A DNA stretch of 64,000 nucleotides from Promineifilum sp. (GTDB lineage Bacteria > Chloroflexota > Anaerolineae > Promineifilales > Promineifilaceae), in contig JAGOZU010000004.1 of NCBI GenBank assembly GCA_018058545.1, forward strand, positions 1-64,000, in the 5' to 3' direction. The notes under the pieces are model-generated. The model worked only from the letters and a program-made list of their open reading frames with translations. It ran no database searches and was not told the DNA's origin. Both the position numbers and the translations under genes were made by a program. Shown piece after piece: positions 2,018-25,546 of the stretch. Each line of letters starts with the position of its first letter. Position 1 is the stretch's first letter.

Positions 2018-3268
2018 CTACTTCTGGCTGACGATATATCCCGCCAGCCGGGGCAAAAACGGCTCCAGTTCATAGCTCTCCCAGGCGCGGCCGCCGCTGG
2101 CCGTAAAGAGTGCGTAGCCGATCACGTAAGAGTCCTGACGTGCCTCGTTGTCGACCCATTGCAATTGGTTCAGATATGCAGTCTGCCCGTCAGGCCCCCA
2201 CCCTTGTTCGACCCAGAAATCCTGAAAATCCTGCCAGCCCAGCCCGTCCGGCCCCGGCCGATTGCCGAGGATGCCGTCGATGCCCGCCTCGGAGATGACC
2301 AGCGGCACGACCAGCCCGCGCGGTTCCAGCACGTCGCGATAGAACCAGCGATAGCGAAACATCAACGGCCCCCGGTCAGGATAGGTGGGGTAGCCGGGCA
2401 ATGGATCGCCATAGAGGAAGGTCAGGTCCGGCGCGGCATATTCATGCAGCGTCAGAATGCCGCCGTGGCGCTTGGCCTCCTCGATGGCCGGGACGAACAA
2501 CTCAAACTCATTCAGCTCCGGCACGCCGGTGGAGAAGCCGCCAACGGCCGCGCGCAAGCCGTGGGCTGCCAGTTGTCGCACGCGCTCGGCCTCGAACCGG
2601 GCGTACCAGTCCATCCGATCCATGTTGGGATCCGGTTCGTTCCAGCCTTCCCAATAGTCAACGGCGGGGTGAAGGCGCATTTGCGGCAGTTGCCGGGCCA
2701 CCAGCGCCGCCGCGGCCGCCTCAGGCTCCCCGTTGTAATCCTGCGGATCGATCGAAAAACGGCCGATCGTCACCGTCGACGGCGACACGGCCTTCACCTC
2801 GGCCAGGAAGCCTAGATCATCCACGCCCTTCACCACCGCCGGTTGCGCCGCGCGAACGAATTCGAGGATGGCATCACTGTTGGGCCGAGCCACATGAAGG
2901 CCCATCTTGCTGGGACCGAGTTCGGGGCGCGGCGAATAGTCGGGGATATTGCTGATATAGGGGGTGGCGACGGGAACGGTGGGTGGCGGAGGTGCCGGCT
3001 CGCTGGTTGGTTCCGGTTCGACCGTCGGCGACGGGATGGCAGTGGGCGCATGACCGCCTCCGGGGACGAGAGGCACGAAGACCTCGGCCGTCGCAACCCC
3101 TGTGGCGGCGGCTGGTGTCGGAGGGTTGGCCGTCGCGGCCATCGGCACGCTGGTGGCCGGCACTTCTGTGACGACGATGGGAGTCGACGAGAGCGAGCTA
3201 TCGGGGTTTTGGCCATCGCAGGCCACCATGATCAGCGTTAGCAGGACCGCCAGGATCAGTCTAATCAT
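2018..3268 (-). CDS. Lipid-anchored glycoside-hydrolase-like TIM-barrel protein
   Basis: The 416-residue product starts with a hydrophobic signal ending in IMVAC (Cys17, lipobox), followed by a Thr/Pro/Ala-rich linker to about residue 105 and then a globular domain. That domain contains WEGWNEPDPN (near residue 213) and VISEAGIDG (near residue 332). These resemble the acid/base Glu after strand 4 and the nucleophile Glu after strand 7 of clan A glycosidases (GH5/GH39-like). Substrate is unknown. It should sit on the outer face of the membrane. The next gene upstream encodes a GT39-type glycosyltransferase 72 bp away, so both may act on a surface glycan. The family assignment rests on motifs only. 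Confidence 0.7.
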   Translation of the reverse strand: MIRLILAVLLTLIMVACDGQNPDSSLSSTPIVVTEVPATSVPMAATANPPTPAAATGVATAEVFVPLVPGGGHAPTAIPSPTVEPEPTSEPAPPPPTVPVATPYISNIPDYSPRPELGPSKMGLHVARPNSDAILEFVRAAQPAVVKGVDDLGFLAEVKAVSPSTVTIGRFSIDPQDYNGEPEAAAAALVARQLPQMRLHPAVDYWEGWNEPDPNMDRMDWYARFEAERVRQLAAHGLRAAVGGFSTGVPELNEFELFVPAIEEAKRHGGILTLHEYAAPDLTFLYGDPLPGYPTYPDRGPLMFRYRWFYRDVLEPRGLVVPLVISEAGIDGILGNRPGPDGLGWQDFQDFWVEQGWGPDGQTAYLNQLQWVDNEARQDSYVIGYALFTASGGRAWESYELEPFLPRLAGYIVSQK

Positions 3269-5817: not shown

Positions 5818-7533
5818 TCAGAGCACGGCCACATCGCCGCTCATTGCCGGCAATTGGAACGTCACCTTAGTGGCGCCCGAGACATATGGCACAGCGAAGG
5901 TTTGCGGCTCATCGCTCATGTTCAGCCCCACGATCACCACGTCGCCGCCATCCTCCCGCGCATAGGCGTAGGTCTTGGCTTCCGAGTTGAGGTGCAGCGT
6001 CCGACGACGGCCGCGCCACAGCGTCGGGTGCCGTCGGCGCAGGTGGCTCAGATGCCAGAAGGTCGAGCTTAAATCCGCGTCCTGCTCCTCGCCCCACAAC
6101 ATCGGCCGGCGGCACTCCTCCATCCCCTGGCTGCCTGGGTCATGGATGCCACGTCCTTGCGACACCCCCACCTCGGTTCCATTGTAGACGATGGGCGCGC
6201 CGCCAAGTGTGAACTGCACCAGCGCCGCCATTTTAAGCTTCCGCTTGTCGCCCCCCGCCCGATAGAGAAAGCGATCCATGTCGTGGTTATCCAGAAAGCT
6301 GGGGCGGCTGAACACGGATTGCTTCGGAAACCAGGCTTCGTGGCGATTGAGGAGCGCATCGAATCCGGCCAGACTCATCGTGCCGTGGGCGAAAGTATTG
6401 CGCAGGGCCTGGCATAGCAGGAAGTCGAGCGCGCCGTCGAAAAGTCCCGCATAGCGGGGATGCTCATCGGGTGAGCGCGTCAATTCGCCGAACATCCAGG
6501 CATCGGGCCGGATGCTGCGGGCGACCACCCGCACGTCGGTCCAAAAGTCGAACGACGGCCCATCGGCATGATCCAGTCGCAAGCCGTCGAAGCCGACATC
6601 GCCGAGCCAAAAGCCGACGCTACGCAACAGATGATCGCGCACTGCCGGGTTATCGACATTGAGCTTGGGCAGCTCGGGCAGGTCGAAATAGGCGACGTAC
6701 TCGTCGGGCCATCGCTTCCAGTAATACCAGTGATGGTAGGGGCTGGCGCGATTGGCCTTCGCCTCCTGAAAAGTGGCGTGCCCTCGGCCCCAGTGATTGC
6801 CCACGAAATCCAGCAACAGCCGTATGCCTCGCTCGTGGCTCTTGTCCACCAACTCGCGTATGTCGTCCATCGTCCCCAATCGGGGGTTGACGGTGAAATA
6901 GTCGGTGGCGTGATAGCCGTGATGGGTTTCATCGGGGAAGAACGGGTTGAGCCAAAGGGCGGTGAATCCCATCCCGGCGATGTAGTCGAGATGGTCGATG
7001 ATCCCCCGCAAGGTTCCGCCATGGATGTCGGACAGGCTGCTCACCGGGTTCCAGGCGCGGCCGTTACCGGGCGAGAAGCGGTCGGGAAAGACCTGATAGA
7101 TGATCGCCGGGAGCGCCCAGGCGGGCGGGCCGGAATCGCCCACGACATATGAGTACTCGGCGCCTTCGTCAGCCCAATAGATCTCGCCGCTATCGACATC
7201 GTGGGCGCGAATCTGATAGCGCACCAGCGTGCCGGCCGGATGGGCGGGCAGCTCGGCCTCCCAAACCTCAAAGTAGTTCCACAGCAGCAGGCTCCACTCC
7301 GTCTTCACCCGCCGCATGGGGATGACGGCCGCTTCCGGCTCCGTCACCAGGCAGACGACCTCGTCCACCGGCAGATCGGGGCCGATAGTGACGCCGGCGA
7401 CCGGTCGCTCCCCAGCGTGGGGCGAGCCGGGCGACAGGCGACGTTGGTGCCGGACGCCCTGCAAGGCTTGTTGCGCTAATTCGGCGCGTTTATCGATGTA
7501 GGCCATTCGGCCGAACAGGGTTTCTGGGGTCAT
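5818..7533 (-). CDS. GH13 alpha-amylase family enzyme (neopullulanase/cyclomaltodextrinase-like)
   Basis: The 571-residue cytoplasmic-looking protein has no signal peptide. An N-terminal beta domain (about 45-135) precedes the TIM barrel, which opens with AIIYQVFPDRF (about 144-153). The four conserved GH13 regions are present: DFVGNHWG (242-249), GLRLDHAD (317-324, nucleophile Asp321), FGELT (348-352, acid/base Glu350) and FLDNHD (413-418, Asp418). A short C-terminal beta domain follows. The layout fits intracellular enzymes that hydrolyse imported maltodextrins or cyclodextrins. With the nearby maltose-type importer and GH57 protein, this suggests alpha-glucan use. The exact linkage specificity cannot be read from sequence. 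Confidence 0.92.
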   Translation of the reverse strand: MTPETLFGRMAYIDKRAELAQQALQGVRHQRRLSPGSPHAGERPVAGVTIGPDLPVDEVVCLVTEPEAAVIPMRRVKTEWSLLLWNYFEVWEAELPAHPAGTLVRYQIRAHDVDSGEIYWADEGAEYSYVVGDSGPPAWALPAIIYQVFPDRFSPGNGRAWNPVSSLSDIHGGTLRGIIDHLDYIAGMGFTALWLNPFFPDETHHGYHATDYFTVNPRLGTMDDIRELVDKSHERGIRLLLDFVGNHWGRGHATFQEAKANRASPYHHWYYWKRWPDEYVAYFDLPELPKLNVDNPAVRDHLLRSVGFWLGDVGFDGLRLDHADGPSFDFWTDVRVVARSIRPDAWMFGELTRSPDEHPRYAGLFDGALDFLLCQALRNTFAHGTMSLAGFDALLNRHEAWFPKQSVFSRPSFLDNHDMDRFLYRAGGDKRKLKMAALVQFTLGGAPIVYNGTEVGVSQGRGIHDPGSQGMEECRRPMLWGEEQDADLSSTFWHLSHLRRRHPTLWRGRRRTLHLNSEAKTYAYAREDGGDVVIVGLNMSDEPQTFAVPYVSGATKVTFQLPAMSGDVAVL

Positions 7534-8434: not shown

Positions 8435-11400
8435 TTACGGCCCCGGTGTCAGGAAATCGACTGTGGCAAACTCATCGGCCGTCAGGCTGCCTTGCGGCGT
8501 GGTCGAAGGCGTTAGAGCGCTCAGCCATGCCTCCTGCTGCCCGGCTTCCGGCCAGACGAGGTCGATCACGCGGGTGTGGTTGGTGCTGCCGGCGGGCGCG
8601 CCACCGATGCGCCATTGCTCAGCCTTGGGGCTCACGTCACGGATGCGCAGCACGCCCCCGCTAGGGAACCCCTCCTGGCTCATCACCATCGCCGCATAGC
8701 GCCATGTTTCCGGCGTATCGCCCAGGATCGATTTGGGCACGCGAATGGTGACCTTCTGCTGCCCGGCGTCGGCGATGACCTGGAAGTCGGCCGGGCCGGC
8801 GATCTCCTTGGGGCCTTCGTCGCCCGGTGTGAAGATCTTCGACTCCCAGCCTTCCACCGTGATGGCATACTCCCAGCCGATACCCGCGGCCGCGGCCAGA
8901 TTCCGGCCCGGCAAAAACGCTCGCCCGCCTGAGTCACTGCCGTCCTGATCGATGTAGATATCGAAGGTCTGCAACGAGACCCCGTTAGGGCTGTCCCAGG
9001 CGTTATCTATCGGTCCCATCATGGTGAACCGGAAGACGATATTCTGCTCGTCCGTGCCCACCTGGAAGTTCGCGATGTCGAAATTGCCCGGCTTGAAGAC
9101 GGGATCGAGTGGATAGGTATAGGTCCCGGGGCCGGTATCGTCGCCCACGGGATCGCTTACTTCCAGCACGGGGATCGTCGTGCCCAGATCGGGGACGACC
9201 ATAACAGCGGGGCCGGATGACGGCATCCGGTCGATGACCGCCGTCTCTCCGCTGACAACCTCGCTGAAGAGCGCGCGCAGCATCAGCCTCGCGCCGACGT
9301 CGGCGTTACCCAGCCAGGCCAGCGGGACGGCGATCTCGATCGGCCCGCCCTCCCCCACAGCCATGCCCGCCGATACCTCTTCGGGGAAATCGAGAGCGGC
9401 GCGGCCGTCCGTCGCCGGGCCGGTAGCCACGAGCGTCCAGCCGTCTTCCGCAGCCACATAGCCGGTCGCGTTGCCCAGCACGCCACCGCTGAATTTCAAT
9501 ACCAGCAGCCTGTTGCTGCCAAAGCCAAGCAGGTCCCCGGTTTGCGAGAAGGCGTTCAACGGACCGCCGGCCGGCGTGCCCAGATAGAGACTGTGCAGCC
9601 CCTGGCCTGTGGGCAATTTGTATTCAGGATCGAGGGTGATTTTCAGATACAGGTTCCGGGCGTCGAAGCCATAGGCCAGCTCGCTGAATGGCGGCGCGCC
9701 GGTGGCCATCACGCCCCCTTCGGCCGCGTATAATCCAGCGGCATCCCATTCGCCATCACCGGCAACGCCGTCGACGACGGGGGTCATCAGGCCGGTGGGA
9801 GCGCGCTCGGCCGCGGCCGGCGTTTCGGGGATGATGGGTACGTCGAGTATGCGTGGCGGTTCCGCGCCCAGCGTCTGATAGACGGCCTTCAGCGTGTTAC
9901 GGAACTGCTGATCGAACGAACCGTCGTCGCCCGAACTCTGATCGGCTCCATACCACCAGAACCAGTCGGAGCCTTCGGCAATATACATCAGCGTGAAGGC
10001 TTCTTCCAGAGCCTCGGGCGTGACCGTATCGCGATTCCGGCCGGTGACATAAGTCTGCAAGTAGATGCGCGTCTCGCGCAGCAGATCCCAGGCGCGATTT
10101 TCTTCTTCCTCGCCAATCCAGGTCGAGAAGTCGCTGTTGATCCATGATCCGGCCCACAGATTGTGGATGCGCGGAAGATCGTCGTCGAGCGCCAGATATT
10201 CGCTCGGCGTGACGGTGATGATGCGGGGATCGTCGCTCAACCGCCGGTACAGCTCGTGCAGGAACTCCTTGCCGTCATTGTCGTAATGTTCCCAGGCGTT
10301 CTCGCCGTCCAGGATGACCGAGACCAGATGTGGCCCGGCTGGTATCTCGCCCTCGGCGTTGGGGCTTTGCAGGCGGCCACAGATGTTGTGGATGCGGTCG
10401 ATGAAGTCTTCGGCCGCGGCCGTGCCCGACACGCCTGAATAGGTGAAGCCCACCTTGTCGGAGATGATCAGATCGCGGAAGAGCATGGCCACCGGCCCGC
10501 CGTTCCGCCCCTGCACCACATAAGGTTGGTAGAGCTGGTCTGCCTCGACGACGACTTCGTTGCCGTCGCGGGTGAAGCTGTCCATGCCCAGGCTGCGCGC
10601 CAGCACGCCTTCGCTGCTGGCCATCCACTGGATGCCGTTGTCGGCAACCATGCTGACCATTTCCTGGGCCACCGAGCCTTCACTGGGCCACATGCCTCGC
10701 GGAGGTTGGCCAAAATGATCGACGTAGAGTTGCACCCCGCGCTCCACCTGGGCCACGGCATCCTGTCCCCAGCGGAACGGCTGGCTGGGCAGGGTCATGT
10801 CGGGTGTAGCGCGCAAGGCCAGATCGGTATCGACCAGCAGCGGCAAGATGGGATGGGCGAACGGCGTCATGGTAACTTCGATCTGCCCGTCTTCCTGCAT
10901 CTCGCGATGGATGGGAATGACTTCATTGATCAGGCGCAGATGCTCATCAAGGACGATCTGCTTATCCTCCTCGCTGAAGCCCGAGCCCTGCTCAACCAGC
11001 GTGGCCAGTGGTTCCTGGGCAAGCCAATCGGGGTCGGTCCAGGCCAGGTTGAACAACAGTTGCAGATCGCGGAAATCATCGACCGAGTAGACGCTCAGCG
11101 CGTCGCTACTGCCGTCGCGCAACTCCAGCAACTCCTGATAGCGCGGGAAGCGGGCGACGATCTTGCGGTTGGTGTCGAAGAAATGGTCGAGGATGAACTG
11201 TTTTTGCGCGTCATCCAAAGCCTCGGCCGGGATGATCGTATGTTCCCAATAGAGATCCGTCGCCCCGGCGCTCAGCGCGTCCAGCTGACGAATGAGGCTG
11301 GGCGTCAGGTTGAATGTGGCCTTGACATCGGGATATTCCCGCAAGGTGGCGGCCATATCGACGTAATCCTTGGTGGCATGCAGGCGGACCCAGGGTTTGG

Positions 11401-11689
11401 CGAAGACGCCCGTCTCCGGGTCCTGGAAATAGACCGGCTGGTGCTGGTGCCAGATGATCGCCAGATAGATCGGCTCCACACACAGGTCGGCCAGCGGCAC
11501 CGCTGTCGGCGCGGCCGTAGGTTGGGGCGGGACGGTGGCCGTCGGAGCCACGGTTGGGGCGGTCGTCGGCTCGGCTGTCGGCAAAGTAGCCTCGGCCGGG
11601 GCTTGCGTCGGCACGGCCGCCGGCTCCTGGCGGCAGGCGACGATGGTTACCAGCAGAATCATCAATAGTATGAAGCGATATGCGCGCAT
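8435..11689 (-). CDS. Large lipid-anchored GH57 glycosidase with C-terminal binding modules
   Basis: The 1084-residue product has a lipoprotein signal (TIVAC, Cys19) and a Thr/Pro linker to about residue 66. The GH57 barrel (about 70-540) shows IIWHQHQP (79-85, motif 1), GMWPSEGSV (motif 3 region) and FRDLIISDKVGF (motif 4, with the acid/base Asp region). The C-terminal part (about 640-1075) looks like two beta-rich modules. The last resembles the glucodextranase C-terminal module: DPVGDDTGPG at its start, then an IYIDQDG segment. It should hydrolyse alpha-glucans outside the cell and feed the nearby maltose-type importer. It is separated from malG by a terminator, so it has its own transcript. 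GH57 includes 4-alpha-glucanotransferases and amylopullulanases, and I cannot choose among these. Confidence 0.85.
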   Translation of the reverse strand: MRAYRFILLMILLVTIVACRQEPAAVPTQAPAEATLPTAEPTTAPTVAPTATVPPQPTAAPTAVPLADLCVEPIYLAIIWHQHQPVYFQDPETGVFAKPWVRLHATKDYVDMAATLREYPDVKATFNLTPSLIRQLDALSAGATDLYWEHTIIPAEALDDAQKQFILDHFFDTNRKIVARFPRYQELLELRDGSSDALSVYSVDDFRDLQLLFNLAWTDPDWLAQEPLATLVEQGSGFSEEDKQIVLDEHLRLINEVIPIHREMQEDGQIEVTMTPFAHPILPLLVDTDLALRATPDMTLPSQPFRWGQDAVAQVERGVQLYVDHFGQPPRGMWPSEGSVAQEMVSMVADNGIQWMASSEGVLARSLGMDSFTRDGNEVVVEADQLYQPYVVQGRNGGPVAMLFRDLIISDKVGFTYSGVSGTAAAEDFIDRIHNICGRLQSPNAEGEIPAGPHLVSVILDGENAWEHYDNDGKEFLHELYRRLSDDPRIITVTPSEYLALDDDLPRIHNLWAGSWINSDFSTWIGEEEENRAWDLLRETRIYLQTYVTGRNRDTVTPEALEEAFTLMYIAEGSDWFWWYGADQSSGDDGSFDQQFRNTLKAVYQTLGAEPPRILDVPIIPETPAAAERAPTGLMTPVVDGVAGDGEWDAAGLYAAEGGVMATGAPPFSELAYGFDARNLYLKITLDPEYKLPTGQGLHSLYLGTPAGGPLNAFSQTGDLLGFGSNRLLVLKFSGGVLGNATGYVAAEDGWTLVATGPATDGRAALDFPEEVSAGMAVGEGGPIEIAVPLAWLGNADVGARLMLRALFSEVVSGETAVIDRMPSSGPAVMVVPDLGTTIPVLEVSDPVGDDTGPGTYTYPLDPVFKPGNFDIANFQVGTDEQNIVFRFTMMGPIDNAWDSPNGVSLQTFDIYIDQDGSDSGGRAFLPGRNLAAAAGIGWEYAITVEGWESKIFTPGDEGPKEIAGPADFQVIADAGQQKVTIRVPKSILGDTPETWRYAAMVMSQEGFPSGGVLRIRDVSPKAEQWRIGGAPAGSTNHTRVIDLVWPEAGQQEAWLSALTPSTTPQGSLTADEFATVDFLTPGP

Positions 11690-11794: not shown

Positions 11795-12706
11795 TTATCC
11801 CTTCACCGACCCGGCCGTCAGGCCGCCGACGATGTAGTCCTGCAAGAGCAGATACACCGCCACCATCGGGATAGCGCCGAGAACCGCGCCGGCGGCGAAC
11901 GGCCCCCAGTCCTGGGAGTAGTTGTCGCCGATGAAGTTATACAGACCCAGCATCAAGGTATACTTGCTGGCGGACGTGATCATGACCCGCGGCATCAGAT
12001 AGTCGCTGTACGTGCCGAAGAAGGTCAGAATCATCGACACAACCAGGATCGGCCGCACCAGCGGGAACAACAGTTGCCAGAAGATCTGCCAATCCGACGC
12101 CCCATCGACCTTGCCCGACTCGTCGATCTCGCGCGGGACGGAGTCGAAGAAGCCTTTCATCAGCCAGACATTGATGCCCATCGCCCCGCCCATGTAGATC
12201 AGGATCAGCCCCCCGTGGGTGTTCAGGCCCAGAAACGGGATATAGGTGCCGATCTGCTGCAGGATGGAGAACAGGGCGACCATAGCCAGGATGGCCGGGA
12301 AGACCTGGATCAGCAGGATGAGCAGCAATAGCTTGCCACGGCTGGCCCAGCGGAAACGCGAGAAAGCGTAGGCCGACATCAGGGTGATAAGTCCCACCAG
12401 GATGGACGAGATAGCCGCGATCTTGAACGAGTTCCACATCCACAGCCAAAAGTCCTGGTTCAGAATGGTGCGATAATGTTCCAGCGTGGCCGGGGTAGGG
12501 ATCAATTTCTGCCCCGAGACGCTGCTCGTCGGGTTGACCGATGCGGATATCGTCCAGAGGATGGGAAAGAGCGAGAAGAACACGACGATGGCCGCGATGA
12601 TGTACTTGAAAAACAACGTTATGCGAAAACGCGCTTTCTTGCTATGCCGCCAATCTGGGGCAGTTTTGGCCGTAGAACGGCCTGCGGTATCGACTGTCGA
12701 GGTCAT
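11795..12706 (-). CDS. malG: Maltose-type ABC transporter permease MalG
   Basis: The 303-residue inner-membrane permease of the CUT1 sugar importer family has six predicted helices. It also has an EAA-type loop, IDESGKVDGASDWQIFWQLLFPL (about 197-219), the contact site for the ATPase. Its ATG overlaps the malF stop by four bases (12703-12706). The C-terminus ends GGLTAGSVKG, as in many MalG proteins. No malK-like ATPase gene is present in the window, so a shared ATPase elsewhere is likely. Confidence 0.93.
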   Translation of the reverse strand: MTSTVDTAGRSTAKTAPDWRHSKKARFRITLFFKYIIAAIVVFFSLFPILWTISASVNPTSSVSGQKLIPTPATLEHYRTILNQDFWLWMWNSFKIAAISSILVGLITLMSAYAFSRFRWASRGKLLLLILLIQVFPAILAMVALFSILQQIGTYIPFLGLNTHGGLILIYMGGAMGINVWLMKGFFDSVPREIDESGKVDGASDWQIFWQLLFPLVRPILVVSMILTFFGTYSDYLMPRVMITSASKYTLMLGLYNFIGDNYSQDWGPFAAGAVLGAIPMVAVYLLLQDYIVGGLTAGSVKG

Positions 12707-14506: not shown

Positions 14507-16261
14507 TTATTGACCGAGTGCGGTGATGATTTGCTGCTGCGCGGTCGTGAAAGCGTTCTCGGCCGTGTCGGCCCCTTGGGCGACCAGGACGATAGCGTTA
14601 CCCCACGCCTCCCAGACGGAGGACATTTCGGGGATGGCCGGCATCGGGTCGGCGTTCACACCGGCCTGGCCGAAGGCCTGGATGTACTCGTCATCCAGTT
14701 TCTCCAGCACCGGTACGAAAGCGGACGGACGCGGGTCGGTGTCATAGAAAGCCTGCATGACTTCCGGCGTGGCCACGAACTCGGTCAGGAAGATCTGGGC
14801 CAGGAGCGGGTCCTTGCTGAAAGCGCTGACCATGAAACCCTGGGCGCCCAGGAAGGGCTTGCCATCAACCGTCTCGGCGGGGATGTTGCAGATCTTGAAC
14901 GGGATGCCCGAATCGACGGTGCGCTGGGTTGCCCATGGGCCGGTGATTTGCATGGCCGAGGTGCCAGCCTCGAACATCTCGTGCTGGATGTCCCAGGTGA
15001 CGGCCGGCGGCTGCAATCCTTCTTTCACCATCGTCTCGAACCACTTCGCGGCAGCGATAGAGCCGGGGTCGCCAACGCCGACGTTGGTCGGGTCGTAGGC
15101 GCCCGCTTCGGTGCGGCCGAAGACGTAGCCACCAAAAGCGGTCTGGATCGGATAGAAGTGATACGGGTCGCCTTCCATACGGACGAAGCCGTACTTGGTG
15201 GCATCGGCCGCGTGCAGTTCGGCCGAGATGTCATGAACCTCGGTCCACGTCGCCGGGCACTCGGGCACCAGGTCGGTGTTGATGAAGAAGGCCACGTTCT
15301 CGGTCGCGTTCGGCAGGCCGTAGGTCTCGCCGTCATAGCTGAAGGCGCTGATGGAGGCCGGGGTGAACGAATCGGTCAGATCGCCCAGATCGATGGGGGA
15401 CAGGAGGCCACTGGTGACCAACTCGCCGAGCCAGTCATGGGCGCCGACGATGATGTCCGGACCTTCACCGGCCGGGCCGGCGATGAGGAAGTTGGAACGG
15501 ATATTGCCGAAACCGACTTCTTCGATCAGCAACTCGACGCCATACTCTTCCTCGAACGAAGCCTCGACCTGCTCCAGGGCGGGCTTGCGGGTGTTGTCGG
15601 CCCAGATGCGGATGACGGGGGTACCGGCCGCGGCCAGTTCCTGCGCACGGAGCGTGTTGACCACGGTCGGCGGGACGAGGACGGTGTCCACAACCTGGAT
15701 GACGCCATTGGAGGCCTCAACATCGGGGGTGGAGATGGAGATGTCGGCAACCTGCAACGGCTCGCCGGCCACGGTATCGATACGTCCGTCTTCGTCGCCG
15801 GTGATGTCAGCAGCCTTCAGAGCGCCATTGATGGCGTGATAGGGCAGCAGGCTGGCCATGAAGCCTCCCACGATGTTCTGGTCGGCAGCATCAAAGGCGG
15901 CATTGGTGGGCACAAACCAGGTCTGCGGGGAATCGGCCGCAGGATCGGCGATGCCGGCCGCGTTCATGGCTTCGACGAACTTGCTGAAGTTCGGATCGGT
16001 TGCCAACAGCTCGAGCATCGTCTTGCTGGTGTCGCTGGCCAGGGTTGGCGCTTCAACAACCGGAGCTTCGGTCGGTTCGGCCGGGGCCTCGGTCGGAGCA
16101 GGGGCCGGCTCATCGGTCGGGGCCGGGGCCGGAGCTTCGGTCGGAGCGGCCACGGGAACTTCCGTCGGGGCCGCCGTCTGGCCACCGCCGCAAGCCACCA
16201 GCGCAATGGCGCCGAGCAGCAGCAGGACCACTAACAGATATCGCTTGGAATTTTTCATCAT
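14507..16261 (-). CDS. malE: Maltose-type substrate-binding lipoprotein fused to a fasciclin (FAS1) domain
   Basis: The 584-residue product has three parts. First come a lipoprotein signal (ALVAC, Cys24) and a Pro/Ala/Thr linker to about residue 73. Second is a FAS1 domain (about 76-203) with the hallmarks TWFVPTNAAF, LLPYHAINGALKAADI and ASNGVIQVVDTVLVPP. Third is a complete CUT1 substrate-binding protein (about 213-584) with VIRIWADNTRKPALEQV, GPDIIVGAHDWLGELV and AMQITGPWA. It should capture maltodextrins outside the membrane for MalFG. FAS1 domains usually mediate adhesion or interact with glycans or matrix proteins. One on a transporter binding protein is unusual. It is the first gene of malE-malF-malG. 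Confidence 0.93.
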   Translation of the reverse strand: MMKNSKRYLLVVLLLLGAIALVACGGGQTAAPTEVPVAAPTEAPAPAPTDEPAPAPTEAPAEPTEAPVVEAPTLASDTSKTMLELLATDPNFSKFVEAMNAAGIADPAADSPQTWFVPTNAAFDAADQNIVGGFMASLLPYHAINGALKAADITGDEDGRIDTVAGEPLQVADISISTPDVEASNGVIQVVDTVLVPPTVVNTLRAQELAAAGTPVIRIWADNTRKPALEQVEASFEEEYGVELLIEEVGFGNIRSNFLIAGPAGEGPDIIVGAHDWLGELVTSGLLSPIDLGDLTDSFTPASISAFSYDGETYGLPNATENVAFFINTDLVPECPATWTEVHDISAELHAADATKYGFVRMEGDPYHFYPIQTAFGGYVFGRTEAGAYDPTNVGVGDPGSIAAAKWFETMVKEGLQPPAVTWDIQHEMFEAGTSAMQITGPWATQRTVDSGIPFKICNIPAETVDGKPFLGAQGFMVSAFSKDPLLAQIFLTEFVATPEVMQAFYDTDPRPSAFVPVLEKLDDEYIQAFGQAGVNADPMPAIPEMSSVWEAWGNAIVLVAQGADTAENAFTTAQQQIITALGQ

Positions 16262-16418: not shown

Positions 16419-16874
16419 TTAAATAAGAATCGCGGCCGAAGGGCTGTTCAACTCTTCCGTCAGCGACCGGTTGAGATGGACGAGCGTGTCGGTGAACCGT
16501 TCGGCCATGCCGTTTTCCAGCGCCGTCAGCCGCAGCTCGATGTAGCCGCGATGGGCTTGCTCGACGCGCTCATGGAGGGCCGCCCCCGACTCCGTCAAAA
16601 AGAGTCGTTGGGCACGGCCATCACGTTCATGCGGCTGTCGCTCTACCAGCCCGTCGTTTTGCAATCCCTGCACCAGGCGAGTGATATTGCTTTTGTCGCA
16701 GAACATGCGTTGGCTTAAAGAACTGGGTGAGATGCCGGGCTCATTGGCAATGTGGGCCAGAGCGTAGTAGCGGGGTACGGTGAGCGCAAATTGCTCCAGA
16801 AACTGGCGATCTCCGAAATCAAGCAGCAGGAATGACTCCTTGATTAAATCATACAGACGCACTTTATCGCTCAT
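16419..16874 (-). CDS. MarR-family transcriptional regulator
   Basis: This 151-residue winged-helix repressor has SPSSLSQRMFCDKSNITRLVQGLQNDGLV (about 50-78, recognition helix region) and then RDGRAQRLFLTESG (wing), as in MarR proteins. A GGGGGC box lies close to the ATG at 16874. An upstream TTG start (16898) would overlap the palindrome 16897-16914, so the ATG is preferred. It is tandem with malE but separated by a terminator. A role in controlling mal genes is only positional. The inducer is unknown. Confidence 0.88.
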   Translation of the reverse strand: MSDKVRLYDLIKESFLLLDFGDRQFLEQFALTVPRYYALAHIANEPGISPSSLSQRMFCDKSNITRLVQGLQNDGLVERQPHERDGRAQRLFLTESGAALHERVEQAHRGYIELRLTALENGMAERFTDTLVHLNRSLTEELNSPSAAILI

Positions 16875-16896
16875 GCCCCCATGTCCTAACGGATAC

Positions 16897-16914
16897 AAGT
16901 TGACACTGCAACTT
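16897..16914. promoter_or_regulatory. Candidate MarR operator
   Basis: The perfect inverted repeat AAGTTG-N6-CAACTT (18 bp) lies 23 bp before the MarR ATG. Size and symmetry match typical MarR dimer sites, which suggests autorepression. Confidence 0.5.
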
Positions 16915-23476: not shown

Positions 23477-25546
23477 TCAGGGAACAGCCACATCCAGTAC
23501 AGCAGGCAGGAACAGTGAATAAGTTGCTGTCCCGGGTTGGAAGGCAGCGTTGATGATCATATCTTCCGTGATAGTCACCCAAACTGGATTGCTTTTGCTA
23601 ACAAGGTCGCCGGACCATCCGGCAAAGTAGAACCCTTCGCTCGGGTAAGCCCTCAATTGAACCTCGGTTCCATGACTAAATTCCATCCCCTGCGGGTTTG
23701 TGGTCACAGAACCGCCGCCATCCAGAATATAAACCGTCAATGTGTAGGTCTTTGCCTCAAAGTTGGCGGAGATCGTTTTGTCCCCATCCATAACGATAGT
23801 CAAAGGATTGGTCAAACCGGTCGCATTACCACTCCAGCCGGTAAAGTTGGAACCTTCCCCAGGCACGGCTGTCAAGGTGACTACCTCGCCGTGCAGGTAA
23901 CCGGATTTTGAAGGATTGATATTAACCTCGCCATTGCCGTTCGGCGTGACGTTTAGCTTACGTTCCGGCGCGGCTGTAAACTGGGCCGTCACCTGCGTAT
24001 TCTGGCCAATGACAACATTAACAGGGTTACTCGTGCCGGACACGGCGCCGCTCCAACCACTAAAGAGGTGGCCTAGATCAGGAAATGCCTCCAGTGTTAC
24101 ATTGGTCCCACATTCATACTTTGTCAAATCAGGGTTGGCAGCAACGGAACCGCCACCCTGGGTTATGATTTCCAGGCTACAGTCTTCTACCTTATTGAAG
24201 ATCGCCGTCACCGTTTTATTACTGTTCATGGTGATAGCGGCCGGATTGTCCGTGCCGGTTAAATCACCACTCCAGCCGGCAAACGCTGAACCGGCCGCAG
24301 GTTGGGCGGTCAATTGAACGACATCGCCAAATTGATACGTCGGCCCGGCAGGATTTCGTTGAACTGAGCCGCTACCGGTGCCGGTGGAATGGATAGTGAG
24401 TGTCGGTGACGTCCGTGGCGAAGCCAATTCCACCTTTACATCACCAAAGATGGCGTCGACATAATGGGCCACCAACAGGACAGAACCACCGGACGGTTCA
24501 AATTTACTGCCTGTTCCTTCAATATTCCACACCGTCGGCTCAGCCTCCGTCGACGGCCATACCTTAAAACGATAGGTTGCGGCATTCGCCGGGTTGGCGG
24601 CCGACTGAACCTGGACCTTGAAATAGTAGGTTTTCCCAAAGGTAAGCTTTGGGGTCTCTGGCCACGTACCGATCTTGTAATTTTTTGCGCCGACAAGTTG
24701 CAAACCTTCGGTTTGCTTTTGCCAACGATACCAGGCTAAGGCTCCCATATTCGACCAGCCTGTATAGGGAGGTTGCTGACCCGGAAGGGCGTAATGGCCG
24801 TTCCATCGAGTGAGTATGCCGATGCCGGGGCCATTACCCGCAGAATCAATGCTGTAAATGGTGATGGGCACGGTAACAGTGTAATCCTGCCAGGACATAT
24901 CGCCGATAGCCAGCAATCGGTCAAAGCCAATAATAGTTGCCTTCACGCCACCGCTTTCGAGCTTCCATTGGCCGTCGACCGGTTGGGCCAGGTCAGTGAC
25001 CTTACTGGCCGTGCTCCATTTCCATGTATACGTTCCCGACGTCCAGGTTGCACCGGCGGTAGAATAGACGACCGTCACAGGCAGGTCACTAGCGCCACCT
25101 GTACTGTCAGCGGCTGAAATGAGAACCGTGTTATCGCCGGGTATAAGCTCGGTGTAGTCGATCTGGATATTAAAGTCGCCCGGTTTAGCCAATCGCGGAT
25201 TGTTCGGCCACATTTGCAGTGGAATAGCCGGCCCACCATTTAGGGTGTAGTTAAGGGAAGTGATACTCCCTCCAGAGCTAACGTTGCCAAGTATATTGAC
25301 CCAGGTTTGCGGGACGCTGCGCTTGCCGCCACGTGTACCAAAAATCAGTGGCTGACCATGCCAAACCTGGATTGCCGGCGCATCGGTTGATGCGATTAAT
25401 ACAGGAGAGCTGGAATAATCTCCATTGATATGCGGATCAGTCTGGGCCGCTAACTTATCGCCATTGGCAATACCCATCAAACCCAGAACCAGTATTAATA
25501 AAGTAATAATTCTTGCTTCAGAGCGATTTTTCAATGTCACCACCAA
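23477..25546 (-). CDS. Secreted surface protein with four InlB/Flg_new-type repeats
   Basis: The 689-residue product has an N-terminal signal (IITLLILVLGLMGIANG). A globular region of about 45-350 includes VWHGQPLIFGTRGG, WVNILGNVSSGG, PVDGQWKLESGG and GFDRLLAIGDMSWQDYTV, and may be a lectin-like jelly roll. Four repeats of about 65-70 residues follow, each with the core F.GWSG....NP and a closing A.F (divergent InlB B-repeat type). The C-terminus is YSLFLPAVLDVAVP. The N-terminal region is paralogous to the next gene (25932-28475). It is the last gene of the polysaccharide cluster. A role in the cell wall, sheath or matrix is inferred. Function is unknown. Confidence 0.8.
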   Translation of the reverse strand: MVVTLKNRSEARIITLLILVLGLMGIANGDKLAAQTDPHINGDYSSSPVLIASTDAPAIQVWHGQPLIFGTRGGKRSVPQTWVNILGNVSSGGSITSLNYTLNGGPAIPLQMWPNNPRLAKPGDFNIQIDYTELIPGDNTVLISAADSTGGASDLPVTVVYSTAGATWTSGTYTWKWSTASKVTDLAQPVDGQWKLESGGVKATIIGFDRLLAIGDMSWQDYTVTVPITIYSIDSAGNGPGIGILTRWNGHYALPGQQPPYTGWSNMGALAWYRWQKQTEGLQLVGAKNYKIGTWPETPKLTFGKTYYFKVQVQSAANPANAATYRFKVWPSTEAEPTVWNIEGTGSKFEPSGGSVLLVAHYVDAIFGDVKVELASPRTSPTLTIHSTGTGSGSVQRNPAGPTYQFGDVVQLTAQPAAGSAFAGWSGDLTGTDNPAAITMNSNKTVTAIFNKVEDCSLEIITQGGGSVAANPDLTKYECGTNVTLEAFPDLGHLFSGWSGAVSGTSNPVNVVIGQNTQVTAQFTAAPERKLNVTPNGNGEVNINPSKSGYLHGEVVTLTAVPGEGSNFTGWSGNATGLTNPLTIVMDGDKTISANFEAKTYTLTVYILDGGGSVTTNPQGMEFSHGTEVQLRAYPSEGFYFAGWSGDLVSKSNPVWVTITEDMIINAAFQPGTATYSLFLPAVLDVAVP

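Follow-up and report, generated by a model that had tools for sequence, protein, structure and literature searches.

The receptor of a putative maltodextrin ABC importer (MalEFG) in Promineifilum carries a FAS1 (fasciclin) domain that was inserted once, in the ancestor of the genus, between the linker behind the lipid anchor and the MalE-type binding domain. In the best explanation that we can offer, to which we give a probability of roughly 0.45, this domain serves as a docking module that acts independently of the transported substrate. The window in which the gene was found is the stretch of 64,000 nucleotides at the start of contig JAGOZU010000004.1 of Promineifilum sp. (positions 1 to 64,000). 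On the list of open reading frames of the window the receptor gene is a single uninterrupted frame running from ATG to stop (Table 1). A GTG frame over the same span on the opposite strand is the mirror of this GC-rich gene; all profile evidence falls on the minus strand. A signal peptide followed by a lipobox, read from the sequence and from 16 relatives, marks the product as a bacterial lipoprotein. An earlier note on this DNA, made from the letters alone, had described a lipid anchor, a FAS1 domain and a MalE-type binding protein in one chain, and both the frame and the Pfam profiles bear this out.

Table 1. Features of the FAS1-MalE gene and of the genes around it; positions are those of the window
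Feature	Position	Strand	Basis
MarR-family regulator, upstream of malE on the same strand	16419..16898	-	profile; gene order in relatives
FAS1-MalE lipoprotein, 584 aa	14507..16261	-	frame, Pfam, NCBIfam and solved-structure matches
Signal peptide and lipobox (LVAC, Cys24)	16190..16261	-	sequence; Cys24 conserved without exception in 16 relatives
Pro/Thr/Glu/Ala-rich flexible linker, residues 25-79	16025..16189	-	sequence; low confidence in model 1
FAS1 domain, residues 80-200 (Pfam Fasciclin 90-197 = 15671-15994)	15662..16024	-	profile, fold of model 2, Foldseek
Short helix linking FAS1 to the binding domain, residues 198-215	15617..15670	-	models 1 and 2 both show a helix at 198-211
MalE-type (CUT1) maltodextrin-binding domain, residues 216-584	14510..15616	-	profiles; Foldseek 6dtu/2gha TM 0.89
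malF-like permease, N-terminal TM_PBP2_N, weak MalF P2	12703..14328	-	profiles; conserved beside malE
malG-like permease	11795..12706	-	profiles; conserved gene order
Lipoprotein GH57 glycosidase with Glucodextran_C domain	8435..11689	-	profile; adjacent in genus
GH13 cyclomaltodextrinase/maltodextrin-glucosidase-like enzyme without an evident signal peptide	5818..7533	-	sequence similarity

The binding domain matches the Pfam families SBP_bac_8 (residues 234-514, 1.6e-34) and SBP_bac_1 (residues 227-502, 1.8e-28), and the nearest NCBIfam model is that of maltose-binding MalE (PRK09474, 2.5e-61). The equivalog cut-offs of NCBIfam are not reached by the receptor (207.6 against 291 bits) or by the two permeases (352 against 392 bits for MalF, 233 against 261 for MalG), and by this standard the domain is MalE-like and not a MalE equivalog. 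With tagged fusion constructs set aside, the closest solved proteins are MalE proteins from Thermotoga maritima, and the best PDB matches found by Foldseek are the maltotetraose- and maltotriose-bound Thermotoga structures (TM 0.89 by target length). The GAHDW, GPWA and VW (SSVWEAW/AAVWAAM) motifs are common to both, and binding of maltodextrins is predicted. An SBP_bac_1/8 domain with a MalE-like fold, together with two MalFG-type permeases encoded in one operon, places the system among the CUT1 importers. A match to the starch-binding type module X25 (PF22058) was not found by Pfam in the window protein.

The order MarR, malE, malF, malG and lipoprotein GH57 with Glucodextran_C is the same in the window and in three further loci (L046, L047, L049), and the enzymatic context of GH57 and GH13 fits maltodextrin use. 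No gene for a MalK-type ATPase was seen in the interval between malE and the GH57 gene. The earlier note had considered that FAS1 might tether the importer to polysaccharide, to an adjacent cell or to a partner such as the lipid-anchored GH57 enzyme. The evidence speaks against a special link to GH57, since a GH57 gene also adjoins malE in five loci whose MalE protein lacks FAS1 (L056, L057, L072, L082, L094), and a role of FAS1 as a dedicated GH57 dock is weakened accordingly. Elsewhere in the window, positions 23477-25546 (-) encode a secreted-looking protein of 689 aa with four divergent InlB B-repeats (PF18998), and positions 2018-3268 (-) a lipoprotein-like frame of 416 aa without a Pfam match at 0.001.

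The earlier note had also named the absence of a FAS1 profile match from residues 76-203 as grounds for rejecting its reading, and the Fasciclin profile (PF02469) indeed matches residues 90-197 with an E-value of 4.5e-15 and 56.4 bits, compared with a curated cut-off of 22. When searched alone against solved structures, the segment matches TGFBI (3.1e-12) and the beta-ig-h3/fasciclin structure 1w7d (1.1e-11), and further matches comprise periostin, CupS and MPT70. As the note claimed, the domain contains the hallmarks VPTNAAF, YHAI and NGVIQVVDTVL; its description as complete needs correction. Alignment with FAS1 domains of the same family reveals that the central beta-hairpin of ordinary FAS1 domains, about ten residues long (I-V-DG-V-LN), is absent from all MalE-fused copies, and that a further seven residues are absent from the helical part of the window copy. 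The window protein thus contains a trimmed FAS1 domain. In a comparison of the fused copies on the Pfam model, the window copy and L017 reach 58-60 bits, compared with 77-84 for the other full fused copies. In a first AlphaFold2 model (model 1) the MalE domain was confident and FAS1 was unfolded with a pLDDT under 50, because only four alignment rows besides the window protein covered FAS1. Model 2 was calculated for residues 74-584 with FAS1 homologues from viral contigs as additional alignment rows, and here both domains, FAS1 included, adopted a confident fold (mean pLDDT 92.5, pTM 0.84; the five models of this stretch ranged from 72 to 92.5). These models come without a domain-to-domain error estimate, and the relative orientation of FAS1 and MalE is therefore not to be trusted. 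The best viral match of the model in Foldseek is a FAS1 protein (2.6e-7).

Five other Promineifilum assemblies carry the FAS1-MalE fusion, with the order MarR-malE-malF-malG conserved. G000, G001, G003, G004 and G006 carry the fusion across the protein, and in G005 it is split over two contigs; G007 holds a contig-end fragment only, and no MalE match was found in G002, an assembly that is 71% complete. The earlier note had named an error joining two genes as the event that would undo its reading, and the window genome is in fact a draft of 185 contigs. The probability of such an artefact is negligible, since the same fusion with the same junction occurs at 67-76% identity in separate assemblies of other species, one of which (G001) consists of three contigs, and since the frame is open in all of them and dN/dS lies below 1. 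These independent assemblies rule out an assembly join.

Beyond the genus, MalE relatives among the matches listed start at query residue ~195-230 and lack FAS1. At class level an even sample of 298 genomes was searched; a MalE match was present in 55 of them, and FAS1 was spanned only by the four Promineifilum among these. Close MalE relatives also occur in records of Chitinivibrionales, Spirochaetales and Pleurocapsa (L070, L072, L082, L125, L122), which reflects either transfer or mis-binned contigs. A quick tree search on the MalE part, with SH-aLRT support only, places the FAS1-MalE proteins in one clade (support 100), the single "plain" member of which is the contig-end fragment L059, and this clade is nested within a larger one together with the plain proteins L050-L053 (support 95). 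The FAS1 tree likewise unites the MalE-fused FAS1 domains in one clade (99/99) apart from other FAS1 domains; the fused domains sit on a long stem without a supported sister group, and the tree pointed to no donor. The simplest history is that Promineifilum gained the domain once, on its stem. The ratio dN/dS (Nei-Gojobori) is 0.38 for FAS1 (bootstrap 95% 0.27-0.50) and 0.31 for MalE, with values below 1 in all 15 FAS1 pairs, and FAS1 is therefore kept under selection. It changes faster than the binding domain, as is evident from identities to the window protein of 53-60% versus 72-83%.

The Promineifilum receptor is not the only one with a FAS1 graft. FAS1 matches in the 52 genomes of the family were listed in full, and most of the long single-FAS1 frames were read. 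Among these, Pfam confirmed a fusion of FAS1 with SBP_bac_5, a binding protein of the oligopeptide/dipeptide type, in G026 (L134:54-2309, -), and a direct fusion with Peripla_BP_6, a binding protein of the amino-acid type, in G017 (L133:59-1942, -). About 35 close relatives of the former in the family and orthologues of the latter at 60-73% identity lack FAS1. Each of these two fusions is known from one genome, and either may owe its existence to an assembly fault. FAS1-receptor fusions beyond the three kinds were not found among the frames read. These two grafts are independent of the FAS1-MalE graft; the FAS1 domain of the SBP_bac_5 protein groups in the FAS1 tree with a 3xFAS1 lipoprotein of its own genome. 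In further, unusual proteins of the family (L146, L151, L153, L147, L150) FAS1 shares the chain with parts that by eye resemble LysM repeats, a tail protease and a propeller.

Because FAS1 has been grafted onto three receptor classes, a role that does not depend on the transported compound is favoured, and FAS1 is probably a general module for envelope or matrix docking, or a stalk, rather than a domain that recognises the transported sugar. The latter function is weakened by the grafts on oligopeptide- and amino-acid-type binding proteins. These grafts also bear on the improbable alternative that FAS1 binds the substrate polymer, be it starch, glycogen or another glucan, and thereby raises the local supply. 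Such a function would agree with the pullulanase-type X25 modules that occur in one or two copies on MalE relatives, C-terminally in many and as an N-terminal tandem in L058, that is in the slot taken by FAS1 in Promineifilum. The X25 modules of Sas20/Sca5 and SusE/F bind starch (PMC9112005), and sugar binding has been proposed for FAS1, in that an ancestral solute- or sugar-binding function was suggested for the fasciclin-like assemblage (PMC1949818). Starch binding would make no sense, however, on receptors for oligopeptides or amino acids. Other combinations were encountered as well: in L055 (4082-6502, +) and L054 a CUT2-type Peripla_BP_4 receptor precedes the MalE domain in one lipoprotein, which thus unites two sugar receptors of different classes, and in L078 (1611-4178, +) and L071 two MalE domains follow each other in one chain.

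A strong alternative, though short of probable, sees in FAS1 a passive stalk or spacer that travelled by recombination between low-complexity linkers, which many lipoproteins share, and that is retained only for folding and for keeping MalE at a certain distance from the membrane. In all three fusions FAS1 lies in or behind a low-complexity, PT/PE-rich linker after the lipobox. Only one MalE was found in the window genome, and the 13 other matches of the whole protein in this genome are N-terminal stretches, mostly leader and linker. The close relationship between the FAS1 domain of the OppA-type protein and the 3xFAS1 lipoprotein in its genome, the faster evolution of the domain and the loss of its hairpin point in the same direction. 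On the other hand, dN/dS is clearly below 1 and the hallmarks are kept in the members of the genus; furthermore, linkers without FAS1 are up to about 90 aa long in relatives, and length alone therefore needs no domain.

If FAS1 acts as a docking module, as we prefer to think, the binding domain would capture maltodextrins, for which the lipid-anchored GH57 enzyme encoded nearby is the probable source, and deliver them to MalFG, as homology and gene order suggest. FAS1 would attach to a glycan or protein in the envelope, sheath or extracellular matrix of the cell itself, or to a neighbouring surface protein, and so keep the receptor in a defined position and at a defined height over the membrane. 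FAS1 domains have roles in extracellular interactions, although "adhesion" can be a misleading label where cells are walled and depends on context, and binding of FAS1 to FAS1 has not been reported (PMC6032426). The absence of the hairpin from the MalE-fused copies, the loss of seven more residues from the window copy and the faster evolution count against docking, just as they would be expected for a spacer, and the analysis pointed to no ligand or binding site. The wider proposal that FAS1 is a portable docking module, inserted at least three times on unrelated receptors in this family, fixing those of ABC importers to a shared sheath or matrix component of the filament and thereby giving order to uptake on the cell surface, is doubtful, albeit possible.

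The binding proteins of ABC importers generally count as receptors with a single purpose, and to our knowledge few bacterial roles have been assigned to FAS1. One family has repeatedly added modules to its receptors: FAS1 was fused in three instances, and MalE relatives of the same lineage also carry starch-binding X25, another MalE domain or a CUT2-type receptor. Evolution may therefore adjust where receptors sit, or how concentrated the substrate is, at the surface; the repeated grafts point to a recurring, as yet unexplained way of equipping transporters, and FAS1 gains a testable bacterial role. The question matters for filament feeding because Promineifilum (spelled Promineofilum in the source) comprises abundant activated-sludge filaments that take up sugars (PMC10746286). 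The earlier note knew the architecture from no described transporter type, and our literature search, which covered papers outside subscription, likewise found no description of a FAS1-binding-protein fusion. Both domains are known; as far as the literature searched shows, nobody has described the two in combination, the fixing of this combination in a genus or its repeated origin on other receptors.

Among known systems, the sister Chloroflexota MalE lipoproteins (L050-L053, 67-68% identity) stand close to the window protein. They are encoded by the orthologous gene in the same MarR-malE-malF-malG order and possess the lipobox, but an Ala/Glu-rich linker takes the place of FAS1 and no GH57 gene lies next door. 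MalE1 and MalE2 of Thermotoga maritima (6dtu, 2gha, 6dts) resemble the window protein in the binding domain (36-38% identity), including the GAHDW and GPWA motifs, and differ in that they lack FAS1 and were solved as soluble proteins without a lipoprotein linker. The MalE-X25 proteins of Anaerolineae (L037, L102 and L104, with L058 as the N-terminal case) combine the same MalE lineage with an extracellular module, which is of the starch-binding X25 type and mostly C-terminal. Stand-alone FAS1 lipoproteins, such as the 3xFAS1 proteins of the family and the solved 1w7d, MPT70 and CupS, have the FAS1 fold and its hallmarks in common with the window protein; in those of the family a lipid anchor is frequent and the hairpin is complete, and a transporter domain is absent from the whole group. 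In the FAS1-SBP_bac_5 and FAS1-Peripla_BP_6 proteins FAS1 likewise sits between lipoprotein linker and binding protein, whereas the binding proteins belong to unrelated classes, the FAS1 domains to different lineages, and each fusion to one genome of 52.
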